The translations under genes were made by a program, and so were the position numbers. Positions 11,689 through 28,899 of a stretch of DNA of 64,000 nt are shown piece after piece (the stretch's first letter is position 1; every line of letters begins with the position of its first letter). The DNA is taken from the NCBI RefSeq assembly GCF_039634785.1, contig NZ_JBBIAB010000012.1:62001-126000 (forward strand). Reading direction: 5' to 3'. The notes beneath the pieces were generated by a model. That model saw only the letters and a list, made by a program, of their open reading frames with translations. It was not told where the DNA came from and made no database searches. The DNA comes from Tistrella mobilis. GTDB taxonomy: Bacteria > Pseudomonadota > Alphaproteobacteria > Tistrellales > Tistrellaceae.

Positions 11689-12044
11689 GACGGCAGAGAG
11701 GCTGAACGCGCAGGTATTTGTTGCGATGCACAAAGCCGGCTTGCCGGATATTACATCCGTCACTGATCGGCCGTGCGGCGGTGTTGCATCATCTTCCGGC
11801 CCGCGTTTTGTTTGAAAACCACCGGGGGCGGCGGTATAGGTTCGAAACCGGCGACCGTCCGGGGGCCGGAGAAGATCCGGTCCATGGGGGGCGCGTTGCC
11901 GCCGCCGCTCTTTGTCTCTCCGGCCGGCATCCGGTGCCGGCCGTGCCTTCTCCGTGACCAGCTCACGTCCCGCCCAACGCACCACGTAAAGCCGTCCGAC
12001 CAGATCGGCCCGCCGATCCCGACGCCCGCGAGGACCGAGACCCG
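11689..12044 (+). promoter_or_regulatory. Leader and promoter region of DAHP synthase
   Basis: 356 bp with no convincing gene. A sigma70-like promoter TTGAAA (11812-11817), 17 bp, TATAGG (11835-11840) reads toward the DAHP synthase and would give a leader of about 200 nt. Within it lies a perfect nine-base inverted repeat CGGCCGGCA/TGCCGGCCG (11921-11943) with a five-base loop. Such a long structured leader before the first aromatic-biosynthesis enzyme could carry attenuation (inference). Confidence 0.5.
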
Positions 12045-13439
12045 ATGCCTGCCACCTGGACCCCGCAAGCCTGGCGCGCGCTGCCCATCAAGCAGCAGCC
12101 GACCTACGACGATCCGGCGCATCTCGCGCGCGTCGAGGCCGAGCTTGCGGGCTATCCGCCGCTGGTCTTTGCCGGCGAGGCGCGGCGCCTGAAGGCGCAT
12201 CTTGCGCGCGTCGCCGAAGGCAAGGCCTTCCTGCTCCAGGGCGGTGACTGCGCCGAGAGCTTCGCCGAGTTCAGCCCCAACAACATCCGCGACACGTTCC
12301 GCGTGCTGCTGCAGATGGCGGTCGTGCTGACCTATGGCGCCGGCATGCCGGTGGTGAAGGTGGGCCGCATGGCCGGCCAGTTCGCCAAGCCGCGCTCCGA
12401 GGATTTCGAGAACCGCGACGGCGTCGCGCTGCCGTCTTATCGCGGCGACATGGTCAACGGCATCGAGTTCGACGCCGCGGCCCGCAAGCCCGATCCCGAC
12501 CGGCTGATCCGGGTCTACAACCAGTCGGCGGCGACGCTGAACCTGCTCAGGGCCTTCGCCCAGGGCGGCTTCGCCGACCTCAACCTGGTGCACAAGTGGA
12601 ACCTGGCCTTCGTCGGCGGCTCCGAACAGGCCGAGCGCTACCGCGCGACGGCCGAGCGGATCTCGGATGCGCTCGACTTCATGGCCGCCTGCGGGGTGAA
12701 TTCGGAAACCGCGCCGCAGCTGCGCCAGACCGATTTCTTCACCAGCCACGAGGCGCTGCTGCTGGGCTACGAGCAGTCGCTGACCCGTGTCGACAGCACC
12801 TCGGGCGACTGGTACGCCTGTTCGGCCCATATGCTGTGGATCGGTGACCGGACCCGCCAGCTGGACGGCGCCCATGTCCAGTTCATGTCTGGCATCGCCA
12901 ACCCGATCGGCGTCAAGGCCGGCCCGTCGATGGATCCGGACGAGCTGCTGCGCCTGATCGATGCGCTGAACCCCGCCAACGAGCCCGGCCGGCTGACCGT
13001 GATCGTGCGCATGGGGGCGGACAAGGTGGCCGACAAGCTGCCGGCCCTGGTCCGCAAGGTCGAAGGCGAGGGCCGCAAGGTGGTCTGGTCCTGCGATCCG
13101 ATGCATGGCAACACCATGAAGACCGAGACCGGCTACAAGACCCGCTCGGTCGACCGGGTGCTGGCCGAGGTGCGGAACTTCTTCGCCGTCCATCAGGCCG
13201 AAGGCAGCCATGCCGGCGGCGTGCATTTCGAGATGACCGGCCAGGACGTCACCGAATGCGTCGGCGGCCTGCGCGCCATCGACCAGTATGGCCTGGCCGA
13301 CCGCTACCACACCCATTGCGACCCGCGGCTGAATGCCGAACAGAGCCTGGAACTGGCCTTCCAGATCGCCGATGCCCTGCGCCGTGAACGCCTGGGCCTG
13401 CCCCAGGCCCCGGCCGCGGCGGCGGGTGCCGCACGGTGA
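12045..13439 (+). CDS. Class II 3-deoxy-7-phosphoheptulonate synthase
   Basis: 464 aa, the length and pattern of the plant/mycobacterial-type (class II) DAHP synthase, EC 2.5.1.54. Diagnostic segments: [12 protein letters not shown] near the start, QGGDCAESF (65-73, metal Cys69), [14 protein letters not shown], the KWNLAF segment, and SCDPMHGNT with [19 protein letters not shown] for metal and phosphoenolpyruvate binding. It condenses PEP and erythrose-4-phosphate in the first step of the shikimate pathway. The stop overlaps a GTG start of the next gene as GTGA. Confidence 0.95.
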
Positions 13440-14740
13440 CATCCGTATCCGCGACCCCCAAGGGTCGGACCGATGCGGCGGCCCCGGAGACCGGGGCCGC
13501 CGTCATTCCTTCCGCTGGCCCCCGAACATCCTCTGCCGACAGCTCTTCTGCCGACAGCTCATCCGCGGACGCCCCGTCCGCCGGCACCACGGAACTGCCG
13601 AGGCTGCGCATGTCTGCCACCAACGACTTCGTCGCCGCCTATACCGATGTCTACTTCAAGCGCACGCGGCGCATCGTCGAGCGTTTCGGCGATCGCAGCG
13701 TGACCTATGCCGTGTTCATGCGCCGCCCGGTGCTGGCGACGCTGAAACTCGCCATCGACTGGATCGAGGCGATGGCCCGGCTGCGCGGGGTGGAGATCGT
13801 GATCGAACCCTGCCACGAGGAAGGCTCGTGGGTGGGGGCGGGCGAGCCGCTGATGTACATCACCGGCCCGATGTCGGCGCTGGTCGAGCTTGAGACGGTG
13901 TATCTCCAGCGTCTGGGCGCCCCTTGTGTCGCCGCCTATAACGCCTGGAGCATGGCGGTCGCCCTGCCGCGCGCGGCCTTCCTCGCCATGGATGCCCGCC
14001 ATTGCGCCGGTGCCGAAATGGCCGAGATGATGGCCTATGCGGCGAGCGTCGGCTCGGCTGCGGCCCAGGCGGAAGGGGCGGTGGGCTTCATCGGCAATGC
14101 CACCGATGCGACGGCGGTGCATTTCGGCAATGCCCATGGTTTCGGCACCATGCCCCATGCGCTGATCGGCTATGCCGGCTCCACGCTTCGGGCCGCGGAG
14201 ATGTTCGTCGACACCTTCCCGGGCGATGCGCTGACCGTGCTGGTCGACTATTACGGCGCCGAGATCACCGATGCGCTGGCGGTCTGCCGCCGCTTCCCCG
14301 AGATGGCGGCGGCCGGCAAGCTGTCGGTACGGCTCGACACCCATGGTGGCCGCTTCCTGGAAGGGTTGGATCCGGCGCTGTCTTATGCGGCGCTGGAACG
14401 CAACCGCCCCGACGCGATCCGTCGCTATCGCAGCGAGACCGAGCTGAAATGGCTGCTCGGCCCCGGGGTTTCGGCGGCGGCGATCTTCCAGATGCGGAAC
14501 GCCCTGGACGATGCCGGGTTCGATAAGGTGCGCATCGTCGCTTCCAGCGGCTTCGGGCCCGAGAAGTGCCGGGTGATGGGCAGCGTCGAAGCCCCGATCG
14601 ACGTGGTCGGCACCGGCTCTTTCCTGCCCGAGAAGTGGAGCGAGACCTACGCGACCGCGGACATCGTATCGTATGACGGGCGCGAGAGCGTGAAGGTCGG
14701 GCGCGAATTCCTGCTGCCGTCGCGGCGGCCCCGCCGCTGA
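13436..14740 (+). CDS. pncB: Nicotinate phosphoribosyltransferase
   Basis: 434 aa from GTG 13436, or 376 aa from ATG 13610. The core has the NAPRTase fold: TDVYFKRT near the start, [59 protein letters not shown], and [10 protein letters not shown] for phosphoribosyl binding. It turns nicotinate and PRPP into NaMN in the Preiss-Handler route. The N-terminal 58 residues of the long form are Ser/Ala/Asp-rich with a 15-bp tandem repeat and have no family match, while ATG 13610 follows GAGG by six bases; the GTGA overlap with the upstream stop supports the longer form. nadE follows 41 bp downstream. Confidence 0.85.
13532..13561 (+). repeat. 15-bp tandem repeat in pncB N-terminal region
   Basis: Two copies of TCTGCCGACAGCTCW in a row (13532-13546 and 13547-13561), followed by a third degenerate unit, encode Ser-Ala-Asp-Ser-Ser repeats. 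In-frame unit size (five codons) would allow length variation without frameshift. Confidence 0.75.
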
Positions 14741-14781
14741 CGGCTCTCCGTGCCGTGCTTTCCGACAGGATCCGGACCGAC

Positions 14782-16446
14782 ATGACCCAGCTTCTGACCC
14801 TGGCCCTGGCCCAGATCAACCCCGTCGTCGGCGATGTCGAGGGCAATGCCCGGCAGCTGCTGGAGGCACGGCAACAGGCGGCGGAACAGGGCGCCGATCT
14901 CTGCGTCACCGGCGAGCTGTCGCTGATCGGCTATCCGCCCGAGGATCTGGTGCGCAAGCCGGCGCTGATGCGCGCGGTGGCATCCGCGCTCGACATGCTG
15001 GCGGCCGCGACCGCCGATGGCGGGCCGGCGCTGATCGTGGGCGCCCCCCATGCCGAGGGCGGCAAGCTTTACAACGCGGCCTATGTTCTGGATGGCGGCC
15101 ACGTCACCGGCGTGGTGCGCAAGCATGCGCTGCCCAATTACGGCGTGTTCGACGAACTCAGGGTCTTCGACCTGGCGCCGCCGGCCGGGCCGGTGGTGAT
15201 CCGCGGCTGGCGGGTCGGGCTGATGGTCTGCGAGGATATGTGGCGGCCGGATTCGGCCGAATGCCTGGCCGAAAGCGGGGCCGAATTCCTGCTGGTGATC
15301 AACGGCAGCCCCTATGAGGTCGACAAGCGCGACCAGCGTCTGGCCCATGCGGTGGCGCGGGTGCACGAAACCGGCCTGCCGCTCGCCTATGTCAATCTGG
15401 TCGGCGGCCAGGACGAGCTGGTCTTCGACGGTGCCTCTTTCGTGCTCGACCGCGACGGTGCGCTGAAGGTTCAGGCGCCGGCCTGGATCAGCGGCACCAC
15501 GCCTGCCCATATCCGCCGCACCGAGGCGGGCGAGGTGGTGGCCGAGGCTGGCCCGCTGTCGCCCGAGCCCGAGGTGCTGGAGGCGATCTACTCGGCGATG
15601 ATGCTGGGCCTGGCCGATTACGTGAACAAGAACGGTTTCCCGGGCGTGGTGCTGGGCCTGTCGGGCGGCATCGACAGTGCCCTGTCGCTGGCGGTGGCGG
15701 TGGATGCGCTGGGGGCGGATCGGGTCCGCGCGGTGATGATGCCCTCGCGCTATACCAGCCGCGACAGCCTGGACGATGCGGCGCTTTGTGCCGAACTCTG
15801 CGGTGTGCGGCTGGACGAGATCCCGATCGAGCCGGCGGTGCAGGCCTTCTCGACCATGCTGGCGCCGGTCTTCGGCAATCGCGGCCCGGATGTGACGGAA
15901 GAGAACATCCAGTCGCGCATCCGTGGCGTCATCCTGATGGCGATGAGCAACAAGTTCGGCGACATGGTGCTGACCACCGGCAACAAGTCCGAGATGTCGG
16001 TCGGCTATGCCACGCTTTATGGCGACATGTGCGGCGGCTATTCGGTGCTGAAGGACGTCTACAAGATGACGGTCTTCGAGCTGTCGCGCTGGCGCAATGC
16101 CCAGAAGCCGGAAGGCGCGCTCGGCCCCGACGGGCCGGTGATGCCCGAGCGGGTGATCGCCAAGCCGCCATCGGCCGAGCTGCGCGAGGATCAGAAGGAC
16201 GAGGACAGCCTGCCGCCCTATGAACGGCTGGACGCCATTCTGGAAGGCCTGGTCGAGAAAGAGCTGCCCCACCGGGTGCTGGTGGAGCAGGGCCAGGATC
16301 GTGACGAGGTCGACCGTATCGCCCGCCTGCTCTATGTGGCGGAATACAAGCGTCGCCAATCGCCCCCGGGCGTGAAGATCACCGGCCGTGCCTTCGGGCG
16401 CGACCGGCGCTATCCGATCACCAACCGCTTCCGCGACCGGGCCTGA
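14782..16446 (+). CDS. nadE: Glutamine-dependent NAD+ synthetase
   Basis: 554 aa. N-terminal nitrilase-type glutaminase (about 1-265) with catalytic Glu in GELSLIGYP, Lys in VRKHALPNYG and Cys in LMVCEDMW. C-terminal ATP pyrophosphatase synthetase with the P-loop LGLSGGIDSALS, then TGNKSEMSVGY and the DVYKMTV segment. It makes NAD from nicotinic acid adenine dinucleotide using glutamine nitrogen. Start at ATG 14782 rather than 14755 because MTQLLTLALAQINPVVGD begins the nitrilase strand directly. Placed behind pncB, it shares the same pathway. Confidence 0.95.
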   Translation: MTQLLTLALAQINPVVGDVEGNARQLLEARQQAAEQGADLCVTGELSLIGYPPEDLVRKPALMRAVASALDMLAAATADGGPALIVGAPHAEGGKLYNAAYVLDGGHVTGVVRKHALPNYGVFDELRVFDLAPPAGPVVIRGWRVGLMVCEDMWRPDSAECLAESGAEFLLVINGSPYEVDKRDQRLAHAVARVHETGLPLAYVNLVGGQDELVFDGASFVLDRDGALKVQAPAWISGTTPAHIRRTEAGEVVAEAGPLSPEPEVLEAIYSAMMLGLADYVNKNGFPGVVLGLSGGIDSALSLAVAVDALGADRVRAVMMPSRYTSRDSLDDAALCAELCGVRLDEIPIEPAVQAFSTMLAPVFGNRGPDVTEENIQSRIRGVILMAMSNKFGDMVLTTGNKSEMSVGYATLYGDMCGGYSVLKDVYKMTVFELSRWRNAQKPEGALGPDGPVMPERVIAKPPSAELREDQKDEDSLPPYERLDAILEGLVEKELPHRVLVEQGQDRDEVDRIARLLYVAEYKRRQSPPGVKITGRAFGRDRRYPITNRFRDRA

Positions 16447-16526
16447 GGCCCGGCCGCCGCCCTGTCGGCGCCGCGGCTGCGGACCGGCGCGGCCATCTGC
16501 CCTGGTTCCACCGAGTATCGGCCCAT

Positions 16527-17882
16527 ATGACCGTCAAGACCCGCTTCGCGCCGTCTCCGACCGGACGTCTCCATGTCGGCAATGCCCGCACCGCGCTGGT
16601 GAACTGGCTCTATGCCCGCGCCCATGGCGGGGTGATGCAACTCCGGATCGATGACACCGATCGCGAGCGCAGCCGCGAGGACTATGTGGCGGGCGTTCTG
16701 GCCGATCTCGACTGGCTGGGCATTCCGGCCGACGAGAGCTTCCGCCAGACCGAACGCGCCGATCGCCATGCCGCCGCTTTCGAACGCCTGGTCGCCTGCG
16801 GCCGGCTCTATCCCTGTTACGAAACCCCGGAAGAGCTGTCGGCGCGGCGTGCGGCCCAGCTGGCCGCCGGTCGGCCGCCGGTCTATGACCGTGCGGCGCT
16901 GTCCCTTTCCGATGCCGATCGTGCGGCGCTGGAGGCCGAAGGCCGCCGGCCGCACTGGCGCTTCCGGCTGGATGACCGCGAGACATCCTGGGAGGATCTG
17001 GTCCGCGGCCGGATCGACGTTCATGCCGGATCGCTGTCCGACCCGGTGCTGATCCGCGCCGACGGTGCCCCCACCTATACGCTCGCCACCGTGGTCGACG
17101 ACGCCGAGACCGGCGTCACCCATGTGATCCGCGGCGAGGACCACATCACCAACACGGCGGCGCAGATCCAGCTGTTCCATGCGCTGGGGGCCGCCGAACC
17201 GCATTTCGGCCATCTGGCTTGGCTGCTGGATGCCGGCGGCGCCGGGCTTTCCAAGCGCGTCGGCTCGCTTGCGGTGGCGGAACTGCGCGAGGACGGCATG
17301 GAGCCGCTGGCGGTGGCGGCCTTCCTCGCCCGGCTCGGCACTTCGGATGCGATCGAACCGGTCGCGGGGCTGGACGAGCTGGTGGCGAGCTTCGATATCA
17401 GCCGCTTCGGCCGGGCGGCTGCCCGTTTCGACCCCGCCGATCTGGTCCAGCTGAATGCCCGGCAGATCCGGCGTCTGGATGCCGGGGGCGTGCGCACGCG
17501 GCTGGTCGGGCTGGGCGTGCCCGATGATCTGGTGGCCCCGTTCTGGGATGCCGTCTCGGGCAATATCGAGCGGATCGCCGAGGCGGGCCGCTGGTGGCAG
17601 GTCGTGGCCGGGCCGGTGACGCCGGTGATCGAGGCCGACGAGACGTCGCAGGCGGTGCTTGCCGCGGCCCGCGACACCTTGCCGCCGGAGCCCTGGGACG
17701 AGACGACCTGGAGCGCCTGGACCCGCGGGATTCAGGGCCTGACGGGGGTGAAGGGGCGGGGGCTTTTCAGGCCGCTCCGCCTGGCGCTGACCGCGGCCGA
17801 GCATGGACCGGAGCTGAAAAAGCTGCTACCGATGATCGGCGCCGCGCGTGCCGCGGCCCGGCTTTCCGGCCAGGATGCCTGA
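16527..17882 (+). CDS. gltX: Glutamyl-tRNA synthetase
   Basis: 451 aa class I synthetase. HIGH-type motif in APSPTGRLHVGNART, IRGEDHITNTAAQ in the catalytic barrel, and the KMSKS equivalent GLSKRVGS. The SKR-VG variant and short length match the second alphaproteobacterial GluRS group, which in some species charges tRNA-Gln as well for later amidation; that specificity is not readable here. Start ATG 16527 begins MTVKTRFAPSPTG. Confidence 0.94.
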   Translation: MTVKTRFAPSPTGRLHVGNARTALVNWLYARAHGGVMQLRIDDTDRERSREDYVAGVLADLDWLGIPADESFRQTERADRHAAAFERLVACGRLYPCYETPEELSARRAAQLAAGRPPVYDRAALSLSDADRAALEAEGRRPHWRFRLDDRETSWEDLVRGRIDVHAGSLSDPVLIRADGAPTYTLATVVDDAETGVTHVIRGEDHITNTAAQIQLFHALGAAEPHFGHLAWLLDAGGAGLSKRVGSLAVAELREDGMEPLAVAAFLARLGTSDAIEPVAGLDELVASFDISRFGRAAARFDPADLVQLNARQIRRLDAGGVRTRLVGLGVPDDLVAPFWDAVSGNIERIAEAGRWWQVVAGPVTPVIEADETSQAVLAAARDTLPPEPWDETTWSAWTRGIQGLTGVKGRGLFRPLRLALTAAEHGPELKKLLPMIGAARAAARLSGQDA

Positions 17883-17976
17883 TGCCTGGCGCCTGATGCC
17901 CGAGGCCACCTGATTCAACCGGCCGGCGCCTCCGCCGTTCGCCCGTCTTTGATTGCCTGCCCGAGGACGAGCCATC

Positions 17977-19368
17977 ATGGCGCTTTCCGTCTACAACACC
18001 CGCACCCGTGCCAAGGAAGCTTTCGAGCCGATCGATCCGGACCATATCCGGATGTATGTCTGCGGCCCCACGGTCTATGACCGCGCGCATATCGGCAATG
18101 CCCGGCCGGTGGTGGTGTTCGACACCCTCTACCGCCTGCTGAAGGCGAGCTATCCGCGCGTCACCTATGTCCGCAACATCACCGATGTCGACGACAAGAT
18201 CATCGTGCGGGCGAAGGAAAGCGGCGAGGCGATCGAGACCCTGACCGCCCGCACCGCGCTGATGTTCCACGAGGATATGGGCGAGCTGAACGCGCTGCCG
18301 CCGTCGATCGAGCCGCGCGCGACCGAGCATATCCCGCAGATGATCGACATGATCCGCCGGCTGATGGCCAAGGATCATGCCTACGAGGCCGAGGGCCATG
18401 TGCTGTTCAGCGTGCCGTCGATGCCCGATTACGGCGGGCTGTCGCGCCGCGATCGGGAAGAGATGGTGGCGGGGGCCCGGGTGGAGGTGGCACCCTACAA
18501 GCGCGATGCCGCCGATTTCGTGCTCTGGAAGCCGAGTGCCGATGATCAGCCCGGCTGGTCCAGCCCCTGGGGCCGCGGCCGTCCGGGCTGGCATATCGAA
18601 TGCTCGGCCATGGCCGAGGCCCATCTGGGCGAGACCTTCGACATCCATGGCGGCGGCCAGGATCTGATCTTCCCGCATCACGAGAACGAGATCGCCCAGA
18701 GCCAGTGCGCCCATGACGGCGCGCTGTTCGTCCGCTACTGGATGCATAACGGCTTCATCAATGTCGACGGCGAGAAGATGTCGAAATCGCTCGGCAACTT
18801 CTTCACCGTCCGCGACCTGCTGGGCCATGTGCCGGGCGAGGCGGTGCGTCTGCTGATGCTCCAGACCCATTACCGCCGGCCGCTGGACTGGACGCAGGAG
18901 GGTATGGAGCGGGCGAAGCAGACGCTCGACCGCTTCTACAACACCCTGCGGCTGATGGACGAGATCGAGCCCGACGGCGATTGCCGCGTCTATCCCGACG
19001 CGGTGCGTGCGGCGCTTGAAGACGACCTCAACACCCCGCTTGCGCTGATGCATCTGCATGAGCTGGTGGGGGAGGCGAACCGCACCACCGATCGGGCCGA
19101 ACGGGCCCGGCTGAAGGCGCAGATCCTGGGGGCGGGGCATGCGCTCGGCCTGCTGCGGCTCGACCCCGAAGCCTGGTTCCGCGGCGGCCCCGCCTCGGGC
19201 GGCGAGACCGGCCCCGACGAGGCCGAGATCGAGCATCTGATCAACGAACGCCTGGCCGCGCGCCGCAACCGCGACTTCGCCACCGCCGACCGGATCCGCG
19301 ACGATCTGAAGGCACGCGGCGTGGTGCTGGAAGACGGGCCCGACGGCACGCGCTGGAAGCGCGGCTGA
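17977..19368 (+). CDS. cysS: Cysteinyl-tRNA synthetase
   Basis: 463 aa. Signature segments: [17 protein letters not shown] (HIGH region with the first zinc Cys), [15 protein letters not shown] (zinc ligands), [19 protein letters not shown], and [11 protein letters not shown] (KMSKS). C-terminal DALR-like domain ends with DGTRWKRG. The ATG at 17977 is preferred over 17953: it follows GAGGA by about nine bases and gives the normal family N-terminus ([10 protein letters not shown]). Confidence 0.95.
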
Positions 19369-19488
19369 GGCATTACCCGGCACAATTGATGTGCCGCAGG
19401 TGTGACTTGCGTATTTCCGTTTCGCATCGGCTGGTTCCGGGTGCTAAACATGTCCCGGAACAGCCGATCGACGGAGAATACGACCCCC

Positions 19489-21126
19489 ATGTCCGGTGAG
19501 CGCATCTATCTCTACGACAGCACGCTGCGCGATGGCGCGCAGACCCGTGGCGTTGATTTCACGGCGGCCGACAAGGCCGCGATTGCGCGTGAACTGGACC
19601 GGCTGGGCATTGACTATATTGAAGGCGGCTGGCCGGGCGCCAACCAGACCGACGACGCCTTCTTCGGCGATCTGCCGCGGATGCAGCGGGCGCGGATCTC
19701 GGCCTTCGGCATGACCCGGCGGTCGGGGCGCTCGGCCGAGAACGATCCCGGATTGTCCGCGGTGCTGAACGCGCCGGTCCAGGCGGTGTGTCTGGTGGGC
19801 AAGAGCTGGGATTTCCAGGCGACCGTGGCGCTGGGTGTCGATCTGGACGAGAACCTGCGCATGGTGTCGGACAGCATCGGCCATGCCGCGCGGGTCAAGG
19901 CCGAGGCGATGTTCGATGCCGAACATTTCTTCGACGGCTACAAGGCCAATCCCGACTATGCGCTGGCCTGCGTCAGGGCGGCATATCAGGCCGGCGCCCG
20001 CTGGGTGGTGCTCTGCGACACCAATGGCGGCACGCTGCCGCATGAGATCGAGGACATCGTCTCCCATGTGGCGACGATCGTTCCCGGCGAGCGGCTGGGC
20101 ATCCACTGCCATGACGATACCGGCAATGCCGTCGCCAACAGCCTGGCGGCGGTCCGTGCCGGGGTGCGCCAGATCCAGGGCACGCTGAACGGCCTGGGGG
20201 AGCGCTGCGGTAATGCCAATCTGGTGACCCTGCTGCCGACCCTGATGCTGAAGATGGGCTATACGACCGGGGTCGACGAGGCCGGGCTCGCCCATCTGAC
20301 CAGCGTCAGCCGCGCCTTCGACGAGCGGATGAACCGGGCGCCGAACATTCATGCGCCCTATGTCGGCGCCGCCGCCTTCGCCCATAAGGGCGGGCTGCAT
20401 GCGAGCGCGGTGCTCAAGGATCCGCGCGCCTATGAGCATATCCGCCCGGAACAGGTCGGCAATCAGCGCCATGTCCTGGTCTCGGACCAGGCCGGCCGGG
20501 CCAATCTTCTGGCGCGGCTCGCCGAGATCGGCATCGAGGTCGACCCGTCGGATCCGCGCCTGCCGACCCTGCTGGAGCAGGTGAAGGCCAACGAGCATAT
20601 GGGCTATGCCTATGACGGCGCCGAGGCCAGCCTGGAGCTGCTCGCCCGTCGCGCGCTGGGCGAGGTGCCGGAATATTTCCGCCTGCTGTCCTTCCGGGTG
20701 ATCGACGAGCGCCGCTACAATGCCCGCGGCGAGCTGGTGACCCTGTCGGAAGCGACGATCAAGATCTCGGTCGGCGGGGTGCCGGTGATGGCGGTGGCAG
20801 AGGGCAACGGCCCGGTCAACGCGCTCGACACCGCCCTGCGACGGGCGATCGCCCAGACCTATCAGCCGGTGCGCGACATGCGGCTGGTCGATTACAAGGT
20901 CCGGATCATGTCGGCCCCGGACGGCACCGGCACCGATGCGGTGACCCGGGTGGTGATCGAAAGTGCCGATACCGCCGGCGACCACTGGTCGACGGTCGGC
21001 GTCTCGGCTAACGTCGTCAATGCCTCTTACGAGGCGCTGGCCGACGGCATCACCTGGCGGCTCTATCGCGCCGGGGTATCGGTGCAGGCGGCGGCAGAGG
21101 TTGCGGCGGCCAATAGCGTCGCCTGA
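19489..21126 (+). CDS. cimA: Citramalate synthase (CimA, LeuA-like)
   Basis: 545 aa. HMGL-like TIM barrel at the N-terminus: IYLYDSTLRDGAQTRG, DYIEGGWPGANQTDDAFF, metal-binding HCHDDTGNAVANS and the GTLNGLGERCGNANL loop. C-terminal LeuA dimer/regulatory domain from about residue 415. The family (TIGR00977-like, by recollection) condenses pyruvate and acetyl-CoA to (R)-citramalate, a threonine-independent entry to isoleucine. 2-isopropylmalate synthase is the main alternative, but the GWPGAN segment and short gap pattern favour CimA. Start at 19489 has GGAG upstream; the longer 19402 start adds an unrelated 29 residues. Confidence 0.88.
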   Translation: MSGERIYLYDSTLRDGAQTRGVDFTAADKAAIARELDRLGIDYIEGGWPGANQTDDAFFGDLPRMQRARISAFGMTRRSGRSAENDPGLSAVLNAPVQAVCLVGKSWDFQATVALGVDLDENLRMVSDSIGHAARVKAEAMFDAEHFFDGYKANPDYALACVRAAYQAGARWVVLCDTNGGTLPHEIEDIVSHVATIVPGERLGIHCHDDTGNAVANSLAAVRAGVRQIQGTLNGLGERCGNANLVTLLPTLMLKMGYTTGVDEAGLAHLTSVSRAFDERMNRAPNIHAPYVGAAAFAHKGGLHASAVLKDPRAYEHIRPEQVGNQRHVLVSDQAGRANLLARLAEIGIEVDPSDPRLPTLLEQVKANEHMGYAYDGAEASLELLARRALGEVPEYFRLLSFRVIDERRYNARGELVTLSEATIKISVGGVPVMAVAEGNGPVNALDTALRRAIAQTYQPVRDMRLVDYKVRIMSAPDGTGTDAVTRVVIESADTAGDHWSTVGVSANVVNASYEALADGITWRLYRAGVSVQAAAEVAAANSVA

Positions 21127-21188
21127 GGACCCGATAGCGTCTTTGTCCGGCGGCCGGCTCCCTTCGCAGCAACAAGATATATGAGCGC

Positions 21189-22763
21189 ATGACCGATCAG
21201 TCCGAGCAGCGGCCGCCCAAGGCGGCCGCCACCCGTGGCATTGAAGGTGCCGTCGGCAACCAGGCCGCCATCATACTGGTGAACACCCAGATCGCCGACA
21301 ATATCGGCTCGGCCGCACGGTCGATGCTGAATTTCGGCCTGACCGACATGCGCCTGGTGGCACCGCGCTGCGAATGGCCGAGCGAGCGGGCGCGGGTTCT
21401 GGCCTCGGGCGCCGATGCGGTGCTCGACAACGCCCGGATCTATGCGACGGTGGCGGATGCGGTCGGCGATCTGGATTTCGTGGTCGCCTCCACCGCGCGG
21501 CCGCGCGACATGGTGAAGCCGGTGGCGACACCCGCCGCGGCGGCGGCGCGCATGCGCGGCCATGTCGAGGCCGGCGGCCGGGTCGGCATTCTGTTCGGCC
21601 CCGAGCGCACCGGGCTTGAGAATGACGATGTGGCTCTGGCCGATCTGATCCTGACCGTGCCGCTCAACCCCGCTTTCGCCTCGCTGAACCTTGCCCAGGC
21701 GGTGGCGCTGGTCTCGTATGAATGGTTCACCGCACGCGACGAGACCGTGCCGGTGCAGCTCGATTTCGGCCGCTATGGCCGGGCGAGCAAGCAGGAGATC
21801 GATGCCTTCCTGGAGCATCTGGGCCAGGCGCTCGACTGGTCGGGGGTGGTGCGCAACCGGCAGATGCGGCCGACGATGCTGCGCAATCTGCAGGCCATGT
21901 TCCTGCGCGCCGATCTGACCGGGCAGGAGGTCCGCTCGCTGCGTGGCTTCCTGCACGGGCTGATGATCCGGGGCGCGCGCGACGAGGAACTGGCGGCCTT
22001 TCCGTCCTATCGCCGCCGCCGCGAGGCGCTGGATCAGGCCGAGACCGGCGGCGCCCCGGCCGAGACCGGCGGTCGCCGGTCGTCCCGTCGCCGCCGCCAT
22101 GCCGAAGCCGAGGCGCGCGCCGAGGCCCTGCGTCTGCGCCCGGGCGCCGGCGATGCGCTGATCGTGACCGATCCGCAATATGATTTCATGCCCGGCGGCG
22201 CGCTGGCGGTCGCCGGCGGCGACCAGATCGTGCCGGTGGTCAACCGGATCGGACGGCTGTTCACCGAGGTGGTGCTGACCCAGGACTGGCACCCGGCCGG
22301 CCATGCCTCTTTCGCTTCCAGCCATGCCGGCAAGGCGCCGTTCCAGACCGCGGAGCTTGCCTATGGCACCCAGGTGCTCTGGCCCGACCATTGCGTGCAG
22401 GGCAGCCATGGCGCCAGGCTGCATGACGATCTGGATCTGCCCCATGCCCGGCTGATCATCCGCAAGGGCGACGACGCCACGGTCGACAGCTATTCGGCCT
22501 TCCTCGCCGCCGACCGGCGCAGCGCCACCGGGCTCGACGGCTATCTGCGCTCGCGCAGCGTCAAGCGGGTTTTCGTCTGCGGGCTCGCCACCGATTTCTG
22601 TGTCGCCTGGACGGCGCTCGACGCCCGGGCCGCCGGTTTCGAGGTGGTTCTGGTGGAAGATGCCTGCCGGGCCATCGATACCGACGGCTCGCTGGACCGC
22701 GCACGCGCCGAGATGACGGCGGCCGGTGTGCGCTTCGTATCCGCCGGTGATCTGTTCATCTGA
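21189..22763 (+). CDS. TrmJ-type RNA methyltransferase fused to nicotinamidase PncA
   Basis: 524 aa in one uninterrupted frame. Residues about 23-280 are a SpoU/TrmJ methyltransferase: NIGSAARSMLNFGL (39-51), GILFGPERTGLEN (133-145), VPLNPAFASLNLAQA (157-171), the knotted SAM site used for tRNA position-32 ribose methylation. Residues 281-320 are an Arg/Glu/Ala-rich linker. Residues 321-524 are a full nicotinamidase: Asp328, Lys426, Cys471 as catalytic triad and Asp366, His368, His401 (DWH, WPDH) as metal ligands. No in-frame ATG lies in the linker that would free the second domain. Nicotinamide deamidation feeds PncB and NadE encoded 5-8 kb upstream. I know of no described protein with this pairing. 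Confidence 0.92.
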   Translation: MTDQSEQRPPKAAATRGIEGAVGNQAAIILVNTQIADNIGSAARSMLNFGLTDMRLVAPRCEWPSERARVLASGADAVLDNARIYATVADAVGDLDFVVASTARPRDMVKPVATPAAAAARMRGHVEAGGRVGILFGPERTGLENDDVALADLILTVPLNPAFASLNLAQAVALVSYEWFTARDETVPVQLDFGRYGRASKQEIDAFLEHLGQALDWSGVVRNRQMRPTMLRNLQAMFLRADLTGQEVRSLRGFLHGLMIRGARDEELAAFPSYRRRREALDQAETGGAPAETGGRRSSRRRRHAEAEARAEALRLRPGAGDALIVTDPQYDFMPGGALAVAGGDQIVPVVNRIGRLFTEVVLTQDWHPAGHASFASSHAGKAPFQTAELAYGTQVLWPDHCVQGSHGARLHDDLDLPHARLIIRKGDDATVDSYSAFLAADRRSATGLDGYLRSRSVKRVFVCGLATDFCVAWTALDARAAGFEVVLVEDACRAIDTDGSLDRARAEMTAAGVRFVSAGDLFI

Positions 22764-22795
22764 CCGAGGCCCCCGCAGCATGTCTGTCGGGGGCG

Positions 22796-22824
22796 TTGCA
22801 TCATCTGAAAATGTTATGTTATAT
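22796..22824 (+). promoter_or_regulatory. Promoter of the cobalamin operon with AT-rich dyad
   Basis: TTGCAT (22796-22801), 17 bp, TTATAT (22819-22824): a good sigma70-type promoter 60 bp before the riboswitch. The stretch from 22809 to 22829 (AAATGTTAT then TATATCGTAT) resembles a Zur-type dyad and covers the -10, so a second metal-responsive control is possible but unproven. Confidence 0.5.
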
Positions 22825-22884
22825 CGTATCAATAACCAGGAGGGCGGGATGCTTGACCAGTCATGGGCGGCTCCACTATCGTCA

Positions 22885-23085
22885 TCCGCGACGGTTCCCC
22901 TCGGGGATCAAAAGGGAACGGGGTGCAGGCGGTGATCCGCGTCAGGCCCCGGCTGCCCCCGCAACTGTAGACGGCGAGCTGGCCGTCAGCGATGCCACTG
23001 GTTGCCCGGCATATCGGGGCGCCGGGAAGGCGACGGACCGGCGATGACTCGTGAGCCAGGAGACCTGCCGTCATTCGTGGTCACG
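22885..23085 (+). ncRNA. Cobalamin riboswitch
   Basis: The conserved core is present in order: AAAAGGGAAC then GGTGC at about 22910-22925, the CTGCCCCCGCAACTGTA block at 22953-22969, GCCACTG at 22994-23000, CGGGAAGG near 23023-23030, and the B12 box AGCCAGGAGACCTGCC at 23054-23069. It binds adenosylcobalamin-type ligands and represses downstream expression. An expression-platform hairpin GATCCGGG/CCCGGATC follows at 23118-23145; it lacks a T-run, so control may act on translation or through Rho. Confidence 0.95.
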
Positions 23086-23117
23086 CGCGTGCCCATCGGT
23101 CGGGGTGTATCGATGGC

Positions 23118-23145
23118 GATCCGGGGGGAATGCTCCACCCGGATC
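23118..23145 (+). other. Hairpin downstream of the cobalamin riboswitch
   Basis: Perfect eight-base arms GATCCGGG (23118-23125) and CCCGGATC (23138-23145) with possible extra G-C pairs inside. It lies 33 nt after the riboswitch and 37 nt before the methyltransferase start, the right place for the regulatory switch helix. Confidence 0.5.
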
Positions 23146-23182
23146 CGGCCTGCGGTGACGTGCCACGCAGGTGAGGCCCAAG

Positions 23183-24004
23183 ATGTCCGCCACGCCCCGG
23201 GCTGCCGTGCCATCGGCCGCGGCCAGCTCTCCATTTGCCAGCCCACCATCCGCCCTCTGGGCGGATGCCGATGCCGCCTTCTTCGCCGAACAACTCGCGC
23301 GGTCGGACTATGCCCGCAATCTGGGCGATACGCTTCGTGCGCTTTACGGCGGCCGGCCGCGCAGCCTGATCGATATCGGCGCCGGATCGGGCCTGCTCGG
23401 CCAGGCCGTGATCGCCCGCGGCGGGCGCTGGTGCGCCATCGAACCCAATGCCCATATGCGCGGCCGGCTGGCCGGGCTTGCCGAGGCGCGGCCCGACCTG
23501 TCGATCGAGATCCGCGACGCCGTCTGGCAGGAGCTTGCGCCCGCCGATCCGGCGGCGCCGGCCGATCTGGTGCTCTGCGCCAATATTCCGGGGCCGATCG
23601 GACAGGCCCGGGCGCTGCATGCCCGCACCCGGCCGCTCGGCCGGATGCTCGCCTGGATCGTGCCGGCCCAGGCGGGACCGCGCAGCTGGTGTCTGGCGGG
23701 TTTTCTGCCATCCCATCTTCATGGTGAAGACATCACCCCCGGCGACCGGCTGGCGCTCGACGAGCTGGGGGGCGACCTTGCCCCCGATACGGTCCATCTG
23801 GTGCCCTGGACCTTCCGGGCGCTGTTTCCCGACCGTGCCGCCGCACGCGCGCATATGCTCGACCATCTGGGCCGCCGCGGTCATGCGGTGGACGATCTGG
23901 AGGCGCGGCTCGATCATCATCTCGATCTGGCGCTGGTCGAAGCCGATGGCGGGGTGATCGCCGAGGCGCCCAAGCTCTCCGCCGTCTTCCTCTGGCACGC
24001 CTGA
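23183..24004 (+). CDS. Class I SAM-dependent methyltransferase under riboswitch control
   Basis: 273 aa. SAM motif I is LIDIGAGSGLLGQ (62-74) with the acidic ribose-binding residue in WCAIEPNAHM (motif II). ADLVLCANIPGPIG occupies the motif IV position. The C-terminal third, with VPWTFRALFPD, is not assignable. ATG 23183 has GGTGAGG upstream; GTG 23171 is an alternative. Being first behind the cobalamin riboswitch and before the TonB receptor, it should be expressed only when cobalamin is scarce. Its substrate is unknown; corrinoid salvage or modification is an inference, and a role in a B12-independent bypass is equally possible. Confidence 0.82.
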   Translation: MSATPRAAVPSAAASSPFASPPSALWADADAAFFAEQLARSDYARNLGDTLRALYGGRPRSLIDIGAGSGLLGQAVIARGGRWCAIEPNAHMRGRLAGLAEARPDLSIEIRDAVWQELAPADPAAPADLVLCANIPGPIGQARALHARTRPLGRMLAWIVPAQAGPRSWCLAGFLPSHLHGEDITPGDRLALDELGGDLAPDTVHLVPWTFRALFPDRAAARAHMLDHLGRRGHAVDDLEARLDHHLDLALVEADGGVIAEAPKLSAVFLWHA

Positions 24005-24033
24005 CACCATAAGAAAAACCGGATCATCAGCCC

Positions 24034-26178
24034 ATGCGCATCCCCTCGCTGCGCCGGCCCGCCCTTGGCGTGCTGGCCCTGTCCTGCTCCGTCGCCTGTC
24101 TTCCCGATGCGGCGGAGGCCGACGTCGCCACCGAACTCGACCGCATGCTGATCACCGCCCAGGGCCGCGACGAACCCCGCGCCCGGGCCGCCGGCACCGT
24201 GCAGGTGATCGACACCGCCACCATCCGCCGGTCGTCCGCCCGGTCGGTGACCGATCTGCTGGCGGAAAACGCCGTCGGCTTCTTCAGCGACTGGAGCCCG
24301 GGCCAGACCTCGTTCAACATCCGCGGCGGCGCGACCGACGGCCAGGGCCGCGACTGGCGCAGCCAGGTGACGGTGCTGATGAACGGCCGCCGTGCCGGCA
24401 CCGCCAATCTCTCCAAGCTCTCGCCCGATGATCTGGACCGGATCGAGATCATCCGCGGCCCGGCCTCGGTGATCTATGGCGCCCAGGCGATCGGCGGCGT
24501 GGTCAACCTGGTTACCCGCAGCGGCGCCACCGAGGATCCGGGCAGCGAGATCACCGCCCGGGTCGGTTCCTTCGGCCTGGTCCGCGGCCATGCCGCCAAT
24601 GCCGGCAGCACGGCCGGCTTCGACCATTATGTCGGCATCGGCGGTGGTCTCTCCGACGACTACCACACCCCCGAGGGGCAGCTTGCCAACACCGCCTGGA
24701 AACGCGGCGGCGGTCTGGCAGCGCTTGGTTTCGAGAGTGAGGATGTCGGGCGCATCGACCTGACGCTCCGCACCGACGGTGTCTATGATGCCGGCTTCCG
24801 CGGCTCGCAATGGGATCTGGACAACACCGACGACCGGCGCAACGCCTCGCTCGATCTTGCCTGGGACACCGAATTCGGCGGCGGGCTGGGGCTTTCGGCC
24901 CAGGCCTATGCGGTGCGTGATGTCGACAGCTTTCACTGGGGGTCGGAGCGTCAGCGCAGTGGTGCGCCGGGCTTTTCGGTCGACGACAACCGCCGCCAGC
25001 TCGACGTGCTGGGGCTGAAGCTGGCGCCGCGGCTGGCGGTGGGGGACGATACCGACCTTCTGTTCGGCATCGATGCTGAAACCGCGAAACTGCGCAGCGA
25101 CCGCTTCCGCCAGTCGGTCTCGGGCGGGGCCACCTCTCAGGTGCCGCCCTATGACATCAACCAGGATACCGAGGATTTCGGCGTGTATGGCGAGGGCGTG
25201 CATCGGGCCTTCGACGACGCGCTGACCCTGCGGGCCGGCGCCCGCTGGACCTATGGCCGGGTTTCGACCAGGGCCACCCCCAACCAGCCGCTGCTGGTGG
25301 AGCGCACCGAAAGCTGGGACGATGTCACCTGGAGTGTCGGCGCCGCCTGGGCGGCCTGGCCGACGGTGACCCTCAGGGCCGGCGTCGCCACCGGCTTCCG
25401 CGCGCCGACCGGCACCGAGCTTGGGGCGGACTTCACCGCCGTCGGCGGCGGCCGCACCTTCGGCAATCCGAACCTCGATCCCGAACGCAGCCTGCAATAC
25501 GAAATCGGCGCCGCCCATGCCGATGGGCCGCTGTTCCTGGATCTGGCGCTGTTCCAGAACACCATCACCGACCGGATCACCACCGTCACCACCGGGCCGG
25601 ATGAGCGGACCTATGCCAATTCCGCGGGCGATGCGGTGATCCGCGGCCTGGAGCTGCAGGCGGCCTATGACATCGCCCGGCGCCTGGGCTGGGACGGCTG
25701 GACCCTGATCGCGCGCGGCTCCGGCGTGTGGAATTTCGAGATGCGCGACAAGGGTGCCGATGCGGCCCTGACCGGGCCCTATACCGACAAGCTGCAGCGC
25801 ATGCATGAAACCCAGGCGGCGCTCGGCATCACCACCGGCCAGCCCGGGGTGTGGAGCCTGACCACCACGGCTGTGTTCCGCGGCCCGCTCTATTACGATA
25901 CCGAAGAAAGTCTGGTGGCGGGGGCCGAGCCCGACAGCCGCTATGTCCATCGCAAGGGATCGAGCTGGCTGATGAACCTGCGCGGCGACTGGTTCGTGAC
26001 CGAGACGCTGACGCTGTTCGCCGGCGTCGACAACCTGTTCGATGTGAACGACCACCCGCTGTTCATCGCCACCGACACCGTGCCCTCGCTCGGCGATCCG
26101 GTGTCGTCGAATGGCGGCGGCACCGGCAACAGCCAGGCGGGGCGGGCGGCCTATGTCGGCCTGACCTATCGCTTCTGA
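24034..26178 (+). CDS. btuB: TonB-dependent receptor, probable cobalamin transporter BtuB
   Basis: 714 aa outer-membrane barrel. Signal peptide ending near AEA, plug domain beginning GTVQVIDTATIRR with LLAENAVG and FNIRGGATDGQG, then IEIIRGPASVIYGAQAIGGVVNLVT (classic plug end), and a 22-strand barrel finishing with Tyr-Arg-Phe. Size is a little larger than E. coli BtuB (about 614). The cobalamin call rests on its position behind the riboswitch and before BtuF-C-D. Transport would be TonB-driven. Confidence 0.85.
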   Translation: MRIPSLRRPALGVLALSCSVACLPDAAEADVATELDRMLITAQGRDEPRARAAGTVQVIDTATIRRSSARSVTDLLAENAVGFFSDWSPGQTSFNIRGGATDGQGRDWRSQVTVLMNGRRAGTANLSKLSPDDLDRIEIIRGPASVIYGAQAIGGVVNLVTRSGATEDPGSEITARVGSFGLVRGHAANAGSTAGFDHYVGIGGGLSDDYHTPEGQLANTAWKRGGGLAALGFESEDVGRIDLTLRTDGVYDAGFRGSQWDLDNTDDRRNASLDLAWDTEFGGGLGLSAQAYAVRDVDSFHWGSERQRSGAPGFSVDDNRRQLDVLGLKLAPRLAVGDDTDLLFGIDAETAKLRSDRFRQSVSGGATSQVPPYDINQDTEDFGVYGEGVHRAFDDALTLRAGARWTYGRVSTRATPNQPLLVERTESWDDVTWSVGAAWAAWPTVTLRAGVATGFRAPTGTELGADFTAVGGGRTFGNPNLDPERSLQYEIGAAHADGPLFLDLALFQNTITDRITTVTTGPDERTYANSAGDAVIRGLELQAAYDIARRLGWDGWTLIARGSGVWNFEMRDKGADAALTGPYTDKLQRMHETQAALGITTGQPGVWSLTTTAVFRGPLYYDTEESLVAGAEPDSRYVHRKGSSWLMNLRGDWFVTETLTLFAGVDNLFDVNDHPLFIATDTVPSLGDPVSSNGGGTGNSQAGRAAYVGLTYRF

Positions 26179-26180
26179 CG

Positions 26181-27119
26181 ATGCGGGCCATCGGTCTTCT
26201 GCTGATCCTGTTCACCTGCATCGCCACCGGCCCCGTCGCGGCGGCGGAAGGCTGGCCGCGGCAGGTGACCGATGCGCTGGGGCGCAGGGTGACGATCCCG
26301 GCGCCGCCGCGCCGGATCGTCGCGATCTTTTCCAGCAATGTCGAAATGCTGGCCGCGATCGGCGCCGGGCCCGACATCGTGGCGATCGAGGCCTGGACGC
26401 GCTGGCCGCCGGATCTGGTCGCCCGCACCGCCCGGGTCGGCGGCCGGCTGGGCTTTTCGGTAGAGGCGATCGCGCGGCTCGATGCCGATCTGGTGGTGAT
26501 GACCCCGGCGCGCCAGGCGGCGGCGGGGCTGGTCGATCCGCTGGGCCGGATCGGCATCCCGGCCCTGGTGCTGACCCATGACCGGCTGGCGGATATTCAG
26601 GCCAATATCCGCCGCCTGGGGCGCGCCACCGGGCGCGAGGCGGCCGCGGATGCGGTCGCCGAACGCATGGGCGCCCGGATCGCGCATCTCGGCGCCTGCC
26701 TGGAGGGGCGGCCGCCCGTGCCGGTCTATCTGGAAACCGGCAGTGACGAGCGCGGCGCCGCCTTCACCATCCGCGATGCCACCTATACCGGCGACATCCT
26801 GCGCGCGGCGGGTGGTGTCAGCGTCTTCGCCGGCCGCGACCGGCTGGGGCGGGTGTCGGGAGAGGCGGTCTGGCGGGCCGATCCCGACCGGATCCTGATC
26901 GCCGGCCCACCGGCGCGGGTGCCCGCCCTGATGCAGCGCCCGGGCTGGGAGGGGATCCGTGCGGTCCGCGCCGGCCGGGTCGATGCGGTCAACCGCGCGC
27001 TGCTGCTGATCCCGGGGCCGCGGGTGGTGGAGGGGGCGGAAATGCTGGCCCGGCTGCTCCATCCCGAGGCCTTCACCGCCGGCGGCAGCTGCATCATGGC
27101 GGCGGAGGGCGATCGATGA
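26181..27119 (+). CDS. btuF: Cobalamin ABC transporter substrate-binding protein BtuF
   Basis: 312 aa. Signal peptide cleaved about Ala22, then a class III periplasmic binding fold: QVTDALGRRVTIPAPPRRIVAI, the central helix, and VYLETGSDERGAAFTIRDATYTGDILRAAGG typical of cobalamin/iron-complex binders. Starts 3 bp after the receptor stop, and its own stop overlaps the permease start as ATGA. Delivers the corrinoid from periplasm to BtuC. Ligand identity is inferred from the riboswitch. Confidence 0.88.
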   Translation: MRAIGLLLILFTCIATGPVAAAEGWPRQVTDALGRRVTIPAPPRRIVAIFSSNVEMLAAIGAGPDIVAIEAWTRWPPDLVARTARVGGRLGFSVEAIARLDADLVVMTPARQAAAGLVDPLGRIGIPALVLTHDRLADIQANIRRLGRATGREAAADAVAERMGARIAHLGACLEGRPPVPVYLETGSDERGAAFTIRDATYTGDILRAAGGVSVFAGRDRLGRVSGEAVWRADPDRILIAGPPARVPALMQRPGWEGIRAVRAGRVDAVNRALLLIPGPRVVEGAEMLARLLHPEAFTAGGSCIMAAEGDR

Positions 27120-28111
27120 CGACGCAGAGGGCCTTCGGTGCCCTGATCGCCCTGCTGCTGGCCGCGATCCTGGCGGGGCTCTGGCTGGGGACCGAGCCGG
27201 CGCGGATCGCCGATCTGGCGGCGCTGCTGCGTGGCGAGGACAGCCCCTTCACCCGGCTGCTGCTGGCCTGGCGGCTACCGCGGGTGCTGGCGGCGGTGGC
27301 GGTCGGCGCCTGTCTGGGGCTGGCGGGGGCGATCTTCCAGGGCGTGTTCCGCAATCCGCTGGCGGAGCCCTGGCTGCTGGGCACCGCCCCCGGGGCGGCC
27401 GTCGGTGCCGCGATCGCGCTGCTGGTGCCGCTGCCGGTGGCGCCGGGTCTGGCGCTGCCGGTGCTGGCCATCGCCGGTGCCTGGGGCGCCACCTGGGTGG
27501 TGATCGCCGCCGCGCGCGCCGCCGGCATCGCCGACGTCACCGGCGTGCTGCTGGCCGGGGTGGCGGTGGCGGCCGCACTCGGCGCCCTGCGCGGGCTGAT
27601 GCTGCTGGCGCTTTCCGACGACACGGTCAATCTGCAGGTGGTGATGAGCTGGACCATGGGCGGCATCCACACGCCCGACATGGCCGGGCTCGGCCTGCTC
27701 TGGCTGGCGACGCTTGCGGCACTCGCACTCGCGCTCGTGCTCGCCCCCGGTCTCGACCGGCTGGGGCTGGGCGACGAGGCGGCCGGCGCCATGGGGCTGA
27801 ATGTCCGCCGCTTCACCGAACTCGCCGTGCTCGCCGGGGCCGCGATCACCGCGATCGCGGTCGGCTGGGGCGGCCTCGTCGGCTTTGTCGGGCTGATGGT
27901 GCCGCATCTGGCCCGGCGCCTGGTCGGCCCGGCACATCATCTGCTGCTGCCGGCCTCCGCCCTCGCCGGGGGCGCGCTGGTTGCAATCTTCGACGGCCTC
28001 GCCCGATCCCTGTTGCCGCCGGCCGATCTGCCGCTCGGCCTGCTGACGGCGCTGGCCGGCGCGCCGGTCTTCCTGCTGCTGCTCGGCCGGGCGCGGGGAG
28101 GGGTGCGATGA
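27116..28111 (+). CDS. btuC: Cobalamin ABC transporter permease BtuC
   Basis: 331 aa FecCD/BtuC family permease with about ten membrane helices. The segment WRLPRVLAAVAVGACLGLAG and ATPase-coupling NPLAEPWLLG, GFVGLMVPHLAR are family hallmarks. It overlaps btuF and btuD at ATGA junctions, so all three are translationally coupled. Confidence 0.92.
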   Translation: MTTQRAFGALIALLLAAILAGLWLGTEPARIADLAALLRGEDSPFTRLLLAWRLPRVLAAVAVGACLGLAGAIFQGVFRNPLAEPWLLGTAPGAAVGAAIALLVPLPVAPGLALPVLAIAGAWGATWVVIAAARAAGIADVTGVLLAGVAVAAALGALRGLMLLALSDDTVNLQVVMSWTMGGIHTPDMAGLGLLWLATLAALALALVLAPGLDRLGLGDEAAGAMGLNVRRFTELAVLAGAAITAIAVGWGGLVGFVGLMVPHLARRLVGPAHHLLLPASALAGGALVAIFDGLARSLLPPADLPLGLLTALAGAPVFLLLLGRARGGVR

Positions 28112-28899
28112 GCGCGGCGGCCCTTGCCCTGGACCATGTCACCCTCAGCCTGGGCGGGCGGGTGGTGCTGGATGATCTCTCGCTCGATGTCCGGCCAGGG
28201 GAATTGCTGGCCCTGATCGGCCCGAACGGATCGGGCAAGACCACGGCGCTGCGCATGCTGACCGGCACGCTCCGCCCCCAGATCGGCCGGGCGCTGATCG
28301 ACGGCCGGCCGGTGGCGGGGCTCGGCCGGCGGGCGGTGGCGACCCGGATCGCCCATCTGCCCCAGGGGTTTCGCAGCCACTGGAACCTGACGGTGCGCGA
28401 TCTGGTCCGGCTGGGTGCGGCCCGCGGGGCAGGGTCGTGGCAGGCGGGCCGGCCGGCGGCACCCGATCCCGCCCTGGATCTGGGGGCGTTGCTGGACCGG
28501 CGGCTGGAAGATCTGTCGGGCGGCGAACGGGCACGGGCGGCGGTCGCCTGGGCGCTGGCCGCGCCGGCCGGTGCCCTGCTTGCGGATGAGCCGGCGGCGG
28601 CGCTCGATATCGGTCATGCTCTGTCGCTGATGCGGCTGTTCGAAGGGCTGCGCGGCGCCGTGACCGTGGTCGTGGTGCTGCATGATCTGGGGCTGGCGCT
28701 TGCCCATGCCGACCGGGTAGCGGTGCTGGCGAAGGGCCGGCTGCTGGCGCTGGACACGCCCGATGTCGTGCTGCAGAACGGGGCGATCGAGGCCGCCTTC
28801 GGCATCCGGCCGGTGCCGGCGCCGGTCGGCCCCGGGGCCTGGCCGGTGGCGGTGCGTGCGGGGGCCGAACCCCGCGGAAATCCGGGTGATTCCCTTTGA
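28108..28899 (+). CDS. btuD: Cobalamin ABC transporter ATPase BtuD
   Basis: 263 aa. Walker [13 protein letters not shown] signature [12 protein letters not shown], Walker [14 protein letters not shown], and the switch His in [15 protein letters not shown]. FepC/BtuD-type importer ATPase. The stop codon lies inside the -35 hexamer of the rpsD promoter. Confidence 0.92.

Follow-up and report, generated by a model that had tools for sequence, protein, structure and literature searches.

A single stop-free frame in Tistrella mobilis joins a TrmJ-family tRNA methyltransferase to a nicotinamidase (Table 1). The window, i.e. the whole stretch of DNA that was analysed, comprises 64,000 nucleotides. 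The encoded chain of 524 residues consists of a SPOUT methyltransferase half (approximately residues 27–262) and a nicotinamidase half (approximately residues 321–524), and the one-frame fusion put forward in the original prediction was borne out, with both halves scoring above curated cut-offs. The SpoU_methylase score was 79.7 bits (Pfam cut-off, 29.7 bits) and the score for the TrmJ/YjtD subfamily model TIGR00050 was 177.1 bits (NCBIfam curated cut-off, 167.15 bits), whereas the TrmJ equivalog model NF011694 gave 119.8 bits against a curated cut-off of 280 bits; because of this lower score, the exact tRNA site of the TrmJ half is a predicted one. The nicotinamidase/pyrazinamidase equivalog model NF008623 scored 192.7 bits, above its NCBIfam cut-off of 174 bits. 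The best solved matches were 3onp and 5gra for the TrmJ half, and the nearest solved chain to the nicotinamidase half was 2wt9 (E = 7.6e-74).

Table 1 Coordinates (window positions) of the fused gene, its domains and residues, and the genes upstream of it.
Feature	Position	Strand	Basis or remark
Class II DAHP synthase	12045..13439	+	Pfam and NCBIfam
pncB-like nicotinate phosphoribosyltransferase	13436..14740	+	Pfam; under NCBIfam cut-offs
nadE (NAD synthase with CN_hydrolase domain)	14755..16446	+	PF02540 and PF00795
gltX-type glutamate-tRNA ligase	16527..17882	+	NCBIfam
cysS (cysteine-tRNA ligase)	17953..19368	+	NCBIfam
cimA (citramalate synthase), directly upstream	19402..21126	+	TIGR00977, 639.3 bits
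Fused gene, TrmJ-family methyltransferase and nicotinamidase, 524 aa	21189..22763	+	Single stop-free frame; Pfam and NCBIfam; same frame in 3/3 genus genomes
SPOUT (SpoU_methylase) domain, residues 27–177	21267..21719	+	Pfam PF00588, E = 3e-22; aligns with solved 3onp, 5gra, 4xbo
STARPR, residues 101–106, counterpart of TrmJ-specific TXARXR	21489..21506	+	Alignment with E. coli TrmJ
TrmJ C-terminal part, residues 178–262	21720..21974	+	TIGR00050 to residue 256; solved TrmJ chains to 257 or 258
Linker, residues 263–312	21975..22124	+	Invariant tail 263–281, variable hinge 282–302, invariant 303–312
Nicotinamidase (Isochorismatase) domain, residues 323–518	22155..22742	+	PF00857, E = 3.6e-24; NF008623; solved 2wt9
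Catalytic Asp328	22170..22172	+	Invariant, 28-row alignment
Metal ligands Asp366 and His368 (D-W-H)	22284..22292	+	Invariant, 28-row alignment
Ser374, counterpart by spacing of fourth (Ser) metal ligand	22308..22310	+	Invariant in 28 rows; role per accessible text of PMC5147024
Metal ligand His401	22389..22391	+	Invariant, 28-row alignment
Catalytic Lys426	22464..22466	+	Invariant, 28-row alignment
Catalytic Cys471	22599..22601	+	Invariant, 28-row alignment

Both halves carry the motifs expected of their families. The SpoU/TrmJ motifs predicted for the first half were recovered as the stretches at residues 38–44, 135–143 and 157–171, which we take to be the SPOUT motifs. The counterpart of TXARXR keeps the two arginines and has S instead of T as its first residue; in the accessible text of PMC5372735, this motif is TrmJ-specific and its two arginines serve tRNA recognition. 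The nicotinamidase triad and the three predicted metal ligands were found at the positions claimed for them, their roles being assigned here from the counterpart residues given in the accessible text of PMC5147024.

The fused gene is the last of a same-strand run that starts with the class II DAHP synthase gene. The pncB–nadE pair lies approximately 5–8 kb upstream, as originally described, but its nearness did not hold up as a sign of a functional tie. A locus of one relative (L131) carries a similar gor-aroH-pncB-nadE-cysS-cimA run followed by an unfused trmJ, and parts of the gor-to-cimA run were found in further relatives. The pair was thus rejected as special evidence for the fusion. cimA occurred upstream of trmJ, within approximately 3 kb, in 11/18 relatives outside the genus, and pncA was found in none of the stretches around trmJ in these 18. 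Given that trmJ keeps the position it has in relatives, where no pncA was found around it, pncA looks like the newcomer. In one genome from a different class of the phylum (L166, G482:C27), trmJ adjoins a pncA-like gene, but the two are convergent. Within the window, PncA, the PncB-like protein and NadE are possibly encoded in one transcription unit, and placement with the pncB-like gene and nadE could have favoured the join. A promoter and terminator scan of 11650–24100 gave counts similar to those of shuffled sequences.

Some features around the run differed between the genus genomes. cysS and cimA are separated by approximately 2.8 kb in G001 and by approximately 6.7 kb, including opposite-strand genes, in G002, so members of the genus do not all share this arrangement. 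The G001 insert (L125, 9085–11874) holds DUF1501 and DUF1800 genes on the same strand as the run, the G002 insert (L126, 9307–15973) holds, on the opposite strand, DUF1800 and DUF1501 genes plus one for an RTX-repeat protein, and the corresponding window interval (19369–19401) is without insert. A minimal start-stop, ATG AGC GCA TGA (window 21181–21192), overlaps the start of the fused gene by four bases and is identical in the three genus genomes, though the sequence farther upstream differs; translational coupling to the fused gene is possible. Downstream, a frame of 277 aa (23171–24004) matched no Pfam family and gave a weak RsmA-like match only. The stretch at 24034–28899 encodes a TonB-dependent receptor, then a FecCD permease and an ABC ATPase, and looks like an iron/heme/cobalamin uptake set.

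In the genomes searched, the order of the window is represented by one genus with three genomes; the accessible text of PMC10408702 places Tistrella in the Tistrellaceae. G001 belongs to the same species as the window, and the genus sample covers two species. The fusion was present in one frame in all three genomes (524, 523 and 522 residues), the other two proteins being 94% identical to that of the window, and the gene-wide nucleotide difference among the three assemblies was 7–9%. At 69% G+C, the presence of an open frame says little by itself, as an antisense frame also crosses the gene. This antisense frame (589 aa, window 21063–22832, minus strand) spans the entire fusion and is most likely a high-G+C by-product. 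The cheapness of long open frames at this composition is what speaks for a sequencing or assembly error having joined two genes; a sequencing-based frameshift in the linker was one of the possible refutations named in the original prediction. Since the three diverged assemblies share the frame and differ in length by whole codons, we rejected such an artefact as extremely improbable. The dN/dS ratios among the three genomes were 0.05–0.07 for the TrmJ half, 0.11–0.16 for the PncA half and 0.16–0.30 for residues 263–320, and both halves are under purifying selection. Judged from these sequences, the fusion is a real, inherited feature of the genus Tistrella.

The junction itself shows the pattern left by translation straight through it. 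In the two flanks of the hinge (residues 263–281 and 303–320) all nucleotide differences among the three genomes fall at third codon positions, with 14 in the former and 10 in the latter (each summed over three non-independent pairs). Within the hinge (residues 282–302), differences occur at all codon positions and length changes comprise whole codons, giving 9–12 amino-acid changes in 18–20 codons. A variable hinge between invariant flanks is as expected of a spacer. However, residues 303–320 are invariant in the three genomes, which exceeds what a plain spacer needs and counts against a simple-spacer view, though part of this stretch is the PncA N-terminus. In unfused relatives, the frame stops 1–44 residues past the counterpart of residue 262 in 24/25 loci (22 distinct genes), and the remaining locus carries a DUF559 domain after the TrmJ part. 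A repeat search around the linker returned short repeat pairs only. The structure model (28 rows; mean pLDDT 62.9, pTM 0.48) was confident for the PncA half only, owing to an alignment without TrmJ rows; it predicted helices at residues 272–285 and 295–316 (block pLDDT approximately 59–80), from which we draw no conclusion.

Such a junction raises the question of whether one protein or two are made. The original prediction stated that the linker holds no in-frame ATG, and none occurs within residues 263–320 of the window gene, but an in-frame ATG (Met259) stands just before the linker in all three genomes. The nicotinamidase would be freed if translation also began internally, for instance at Met259, or if a protease acted on the hinge, and the Arg-rich, variable hinge might be cut. 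GTG codons occur at 326 or its equivalent in 3/3 genus genomes and at 248, 283 and 290 in G002 only. Of these, GTG326 lies only two codons before catalytic Asp328, and the hinge codons GTG283 and GTG290, which could serve as starts in G002, have no equivalent in the other two genomes. No obvious purine-rich ribosome-binding site precedes ATG259, although this is a weak argument as none precedes the main start either. Overall, we consider the production of two proteins unlikely.

We further investigated the occurrence of the joined architecture outside the genus, as the original prediction had proposed. The joined form was present in 3/3 genus genomes and, among the matches listed for the sampled genomes, no match spanning both halves came from elsewhere. 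This included the class of the window (3/385 genomes, all three of the genus) and two samples of its phylum (1/120 and 1/398, each the window's own). No spanning match at E 1e-70 was found in the class of G607 (0/369 genomes) or in the orders of G061 and G203 (0/43 and 0/18 genomes). These samples overlap (1345 genomes searched with repeats; genome labels up to G1145), the lists for the 385-, 120- and 398-genome samples give the best matches, three or four candidates per genome were scored in the 385-, 398- and 369-genome samples, and weaker fusions would be hidden at the thresholds applied to the 398-genome sample (E 1e-45) and to the G607, G061 and G203 samples. The genome collections hold part of all species, and records near the window's genome may be absent from them.

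As a control, three TrmJ and three PncA sequences of the window's class were artificially joined and compared using blastp instead of the search tool. One spanning match was returned for 34/36 joins with linkers of 0–80 residues and for 2/9 joins with 120-residue linkers. The spanning matches shown scored 484–501 bits versus 298.7 bits for the best single-half match, so any fusion of this kind among the genomes of the class would be expected at the top of the list. This suggests that, at alphaproteobacterial divergence, the search would reveal fusions whose linkers do not exceed 80 residues, whilst it could overlook those that have long linkers or belong to distant groups. In the contig scan, the best 80 of 594 relatives all matched by their PncA part, and both halves were found in 6/144 collected loci, all six from the three genus genomes. 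Plasmid records matching the fusion protein numbered 176, none of which covered 80% of the fusion in one place, and three stretches of viral contigs fitted the TrmJ-half pattern, none being a relative. In a quick PncA tree (112 rows), the three genus rows grouped together (support 99) beside one Derxia row (87) in a mixed alpha- and betaproteobacterial set; as the Derxia neighbour falls below the 95 mark, no pncA donor was assigned.

A second copy of either half was not evident in the window's genome. At E 0.001, the TrmJ half matched no second relative in the three genus genomes, and the fused gene alone passed the nicotinamidase cut-off among eight matches in the window's genome. The same genome has six SpoU_methylase matches in Pfam, fusion included, and the five further matches were counted against a sole-copy reading of the TrmJ half. 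G002 has a second isochorismatase-like match (L006, G002:C1:37269–37751; 35% identity to residues 312–494, E = 3.5e-8), with no counterpart listed in the other two genus genomes, so the PncA part of the fusion may not be the sole one there. NadA exceeded its cut-off in 3/3 genus genomes; salvage is thus not the sole route to NAD, and we do not argue that PncA is essential.

The two halves each resemble a well-defined enzyme. TrmJ (tRNA position-32 2'-O-methyltransferase, COG0565; solved 4xbo and 4cnd, relatives 3onp and 5gra) shares with the fusion the SPOUT domain, a TXARXR-like stretch (STARPR in the fusion) and the C-terminal part, aligning over approximately residues 27–258, and differs in lacking the added nicotinamidase; the fusion also scores over the subfamily but under the equivalog cut-off. 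PncA, for which 2wt9 is the closest solved structure, shares the Asp-Lys-Cys triad, the Asp-His-His metal site and the Ser counterpart, but is free-standing, whereas in the fusion the nicotinamidase follows approximately 320 residues that make up the methyltransferase and the linker. Extra domains on SPOUT proteins have been described. The accessible text of PMC1829167, from 2007, reports COG0565 proteins with a C-terminal PD-(D/E)XK (DUF559) domain, the bll5746 group of Bradyrhizobium, and we observed a SpoU_methylase and DUF559 pair in L165 (G360). Like the fusion, the bll5746 group represents an extra C-terminal domain on an alphaproteobacterial COG0565 protein, but its partner is a putative nuclease domain and not a cofactor-salvage enzyme. 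In agreement with the original statement that no described protein is known to join tRNA modification to NAD salvage, no report of a TrmJ–nicotinamidase pairing was found in the literature searched, which covered few subscription papers, nor was a paper naming both Tistrella and nicotinamidase; the pairing was likewise not seen in the accessible parts of the fusion survey PMC4921024 and the knotted-fusion paper PMC11187310. An extra C-terminal domain on a TrmJ-family protein is therefore precedented, and a nicotinamidase as the partner is without a report in that literature.

Taken together, we favour, with a probability of approximately 0.72, a bifunctional enzyme that arose by gene joining, is inherited in Tistrella and has two active sites that are independent of each other and connected by a hinged linker. 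In an ancestor of the genus, pncA would have been placed downstream of trmJ, in the same frame, where the run shared with relatives has its 3' end, and loss of the trmJ stop would have given a single chain; the position downstream of cimA shared with relatives supports this reading. The chain would dimerize as TrmJ does and methylate an anticodon-loop ribose of tRNA, putatively at position 32, with each subunit bearing a nicotinamidase head on its hinged linker. These heads would convert nicotinamide by hydrolysis into nicotinate, which PncB and NadE would then salvage, the two sites most likely working independently. Each half would be retained because no other copy of its kind was found in the window's genome. 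The accessible texts describe TrmJ as a dimer (PMC5372735) and one nicotinamidase as dimeric (PMC5147024), so that higher-order assemblies of the chain, with unforeseen effects, are conceivable.

The join may instead be functional, if tRNA methylation responds to NAD turnover or to whether the nicotinamidase site is occupied, or if TrmJ tethers the amidase to tRNA. Retention of the joined form in both species examined, the invariant stretch next to the hinge and the pncB-like and nadE genes in the same run would all fit such coupling. However, among the sampled genomes the fusion is confined to one genus, the similar pncB–nadE context precedes an unfused trmJ elsewhere, no pncA was found in the stretches around trmJ in 18 relatives outside the genus, and the adjacent pair of G482 is convergent. 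In addition, no paper naming both nicotinamidase and TrmJ was found in the literature searched. We therefore regard a functional join as about as unlikely as the release of a separate nicotinamidase. More doubtful still is an allosteric unit in which the PncA head senses nicotinamide or NAD turnover and alters position-32 methylation, so that decoding would be tuned by the state of the redox cofactor.

Provided that both halves are active, the bifunctional enzyme would unite RNA modification with cofactor salvage in a single polypeptide, for which we found no report in the literature searched. As relatives carry an unfused trmJ and neither half is evidently duplicated in the window's genome, Tistrella lends itself to asking whether genes that are fused are also functionally coupled. 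Should the two halves turn out to work independently, the fusion would be a caution for the rule by which joint action is read from gene fusion.
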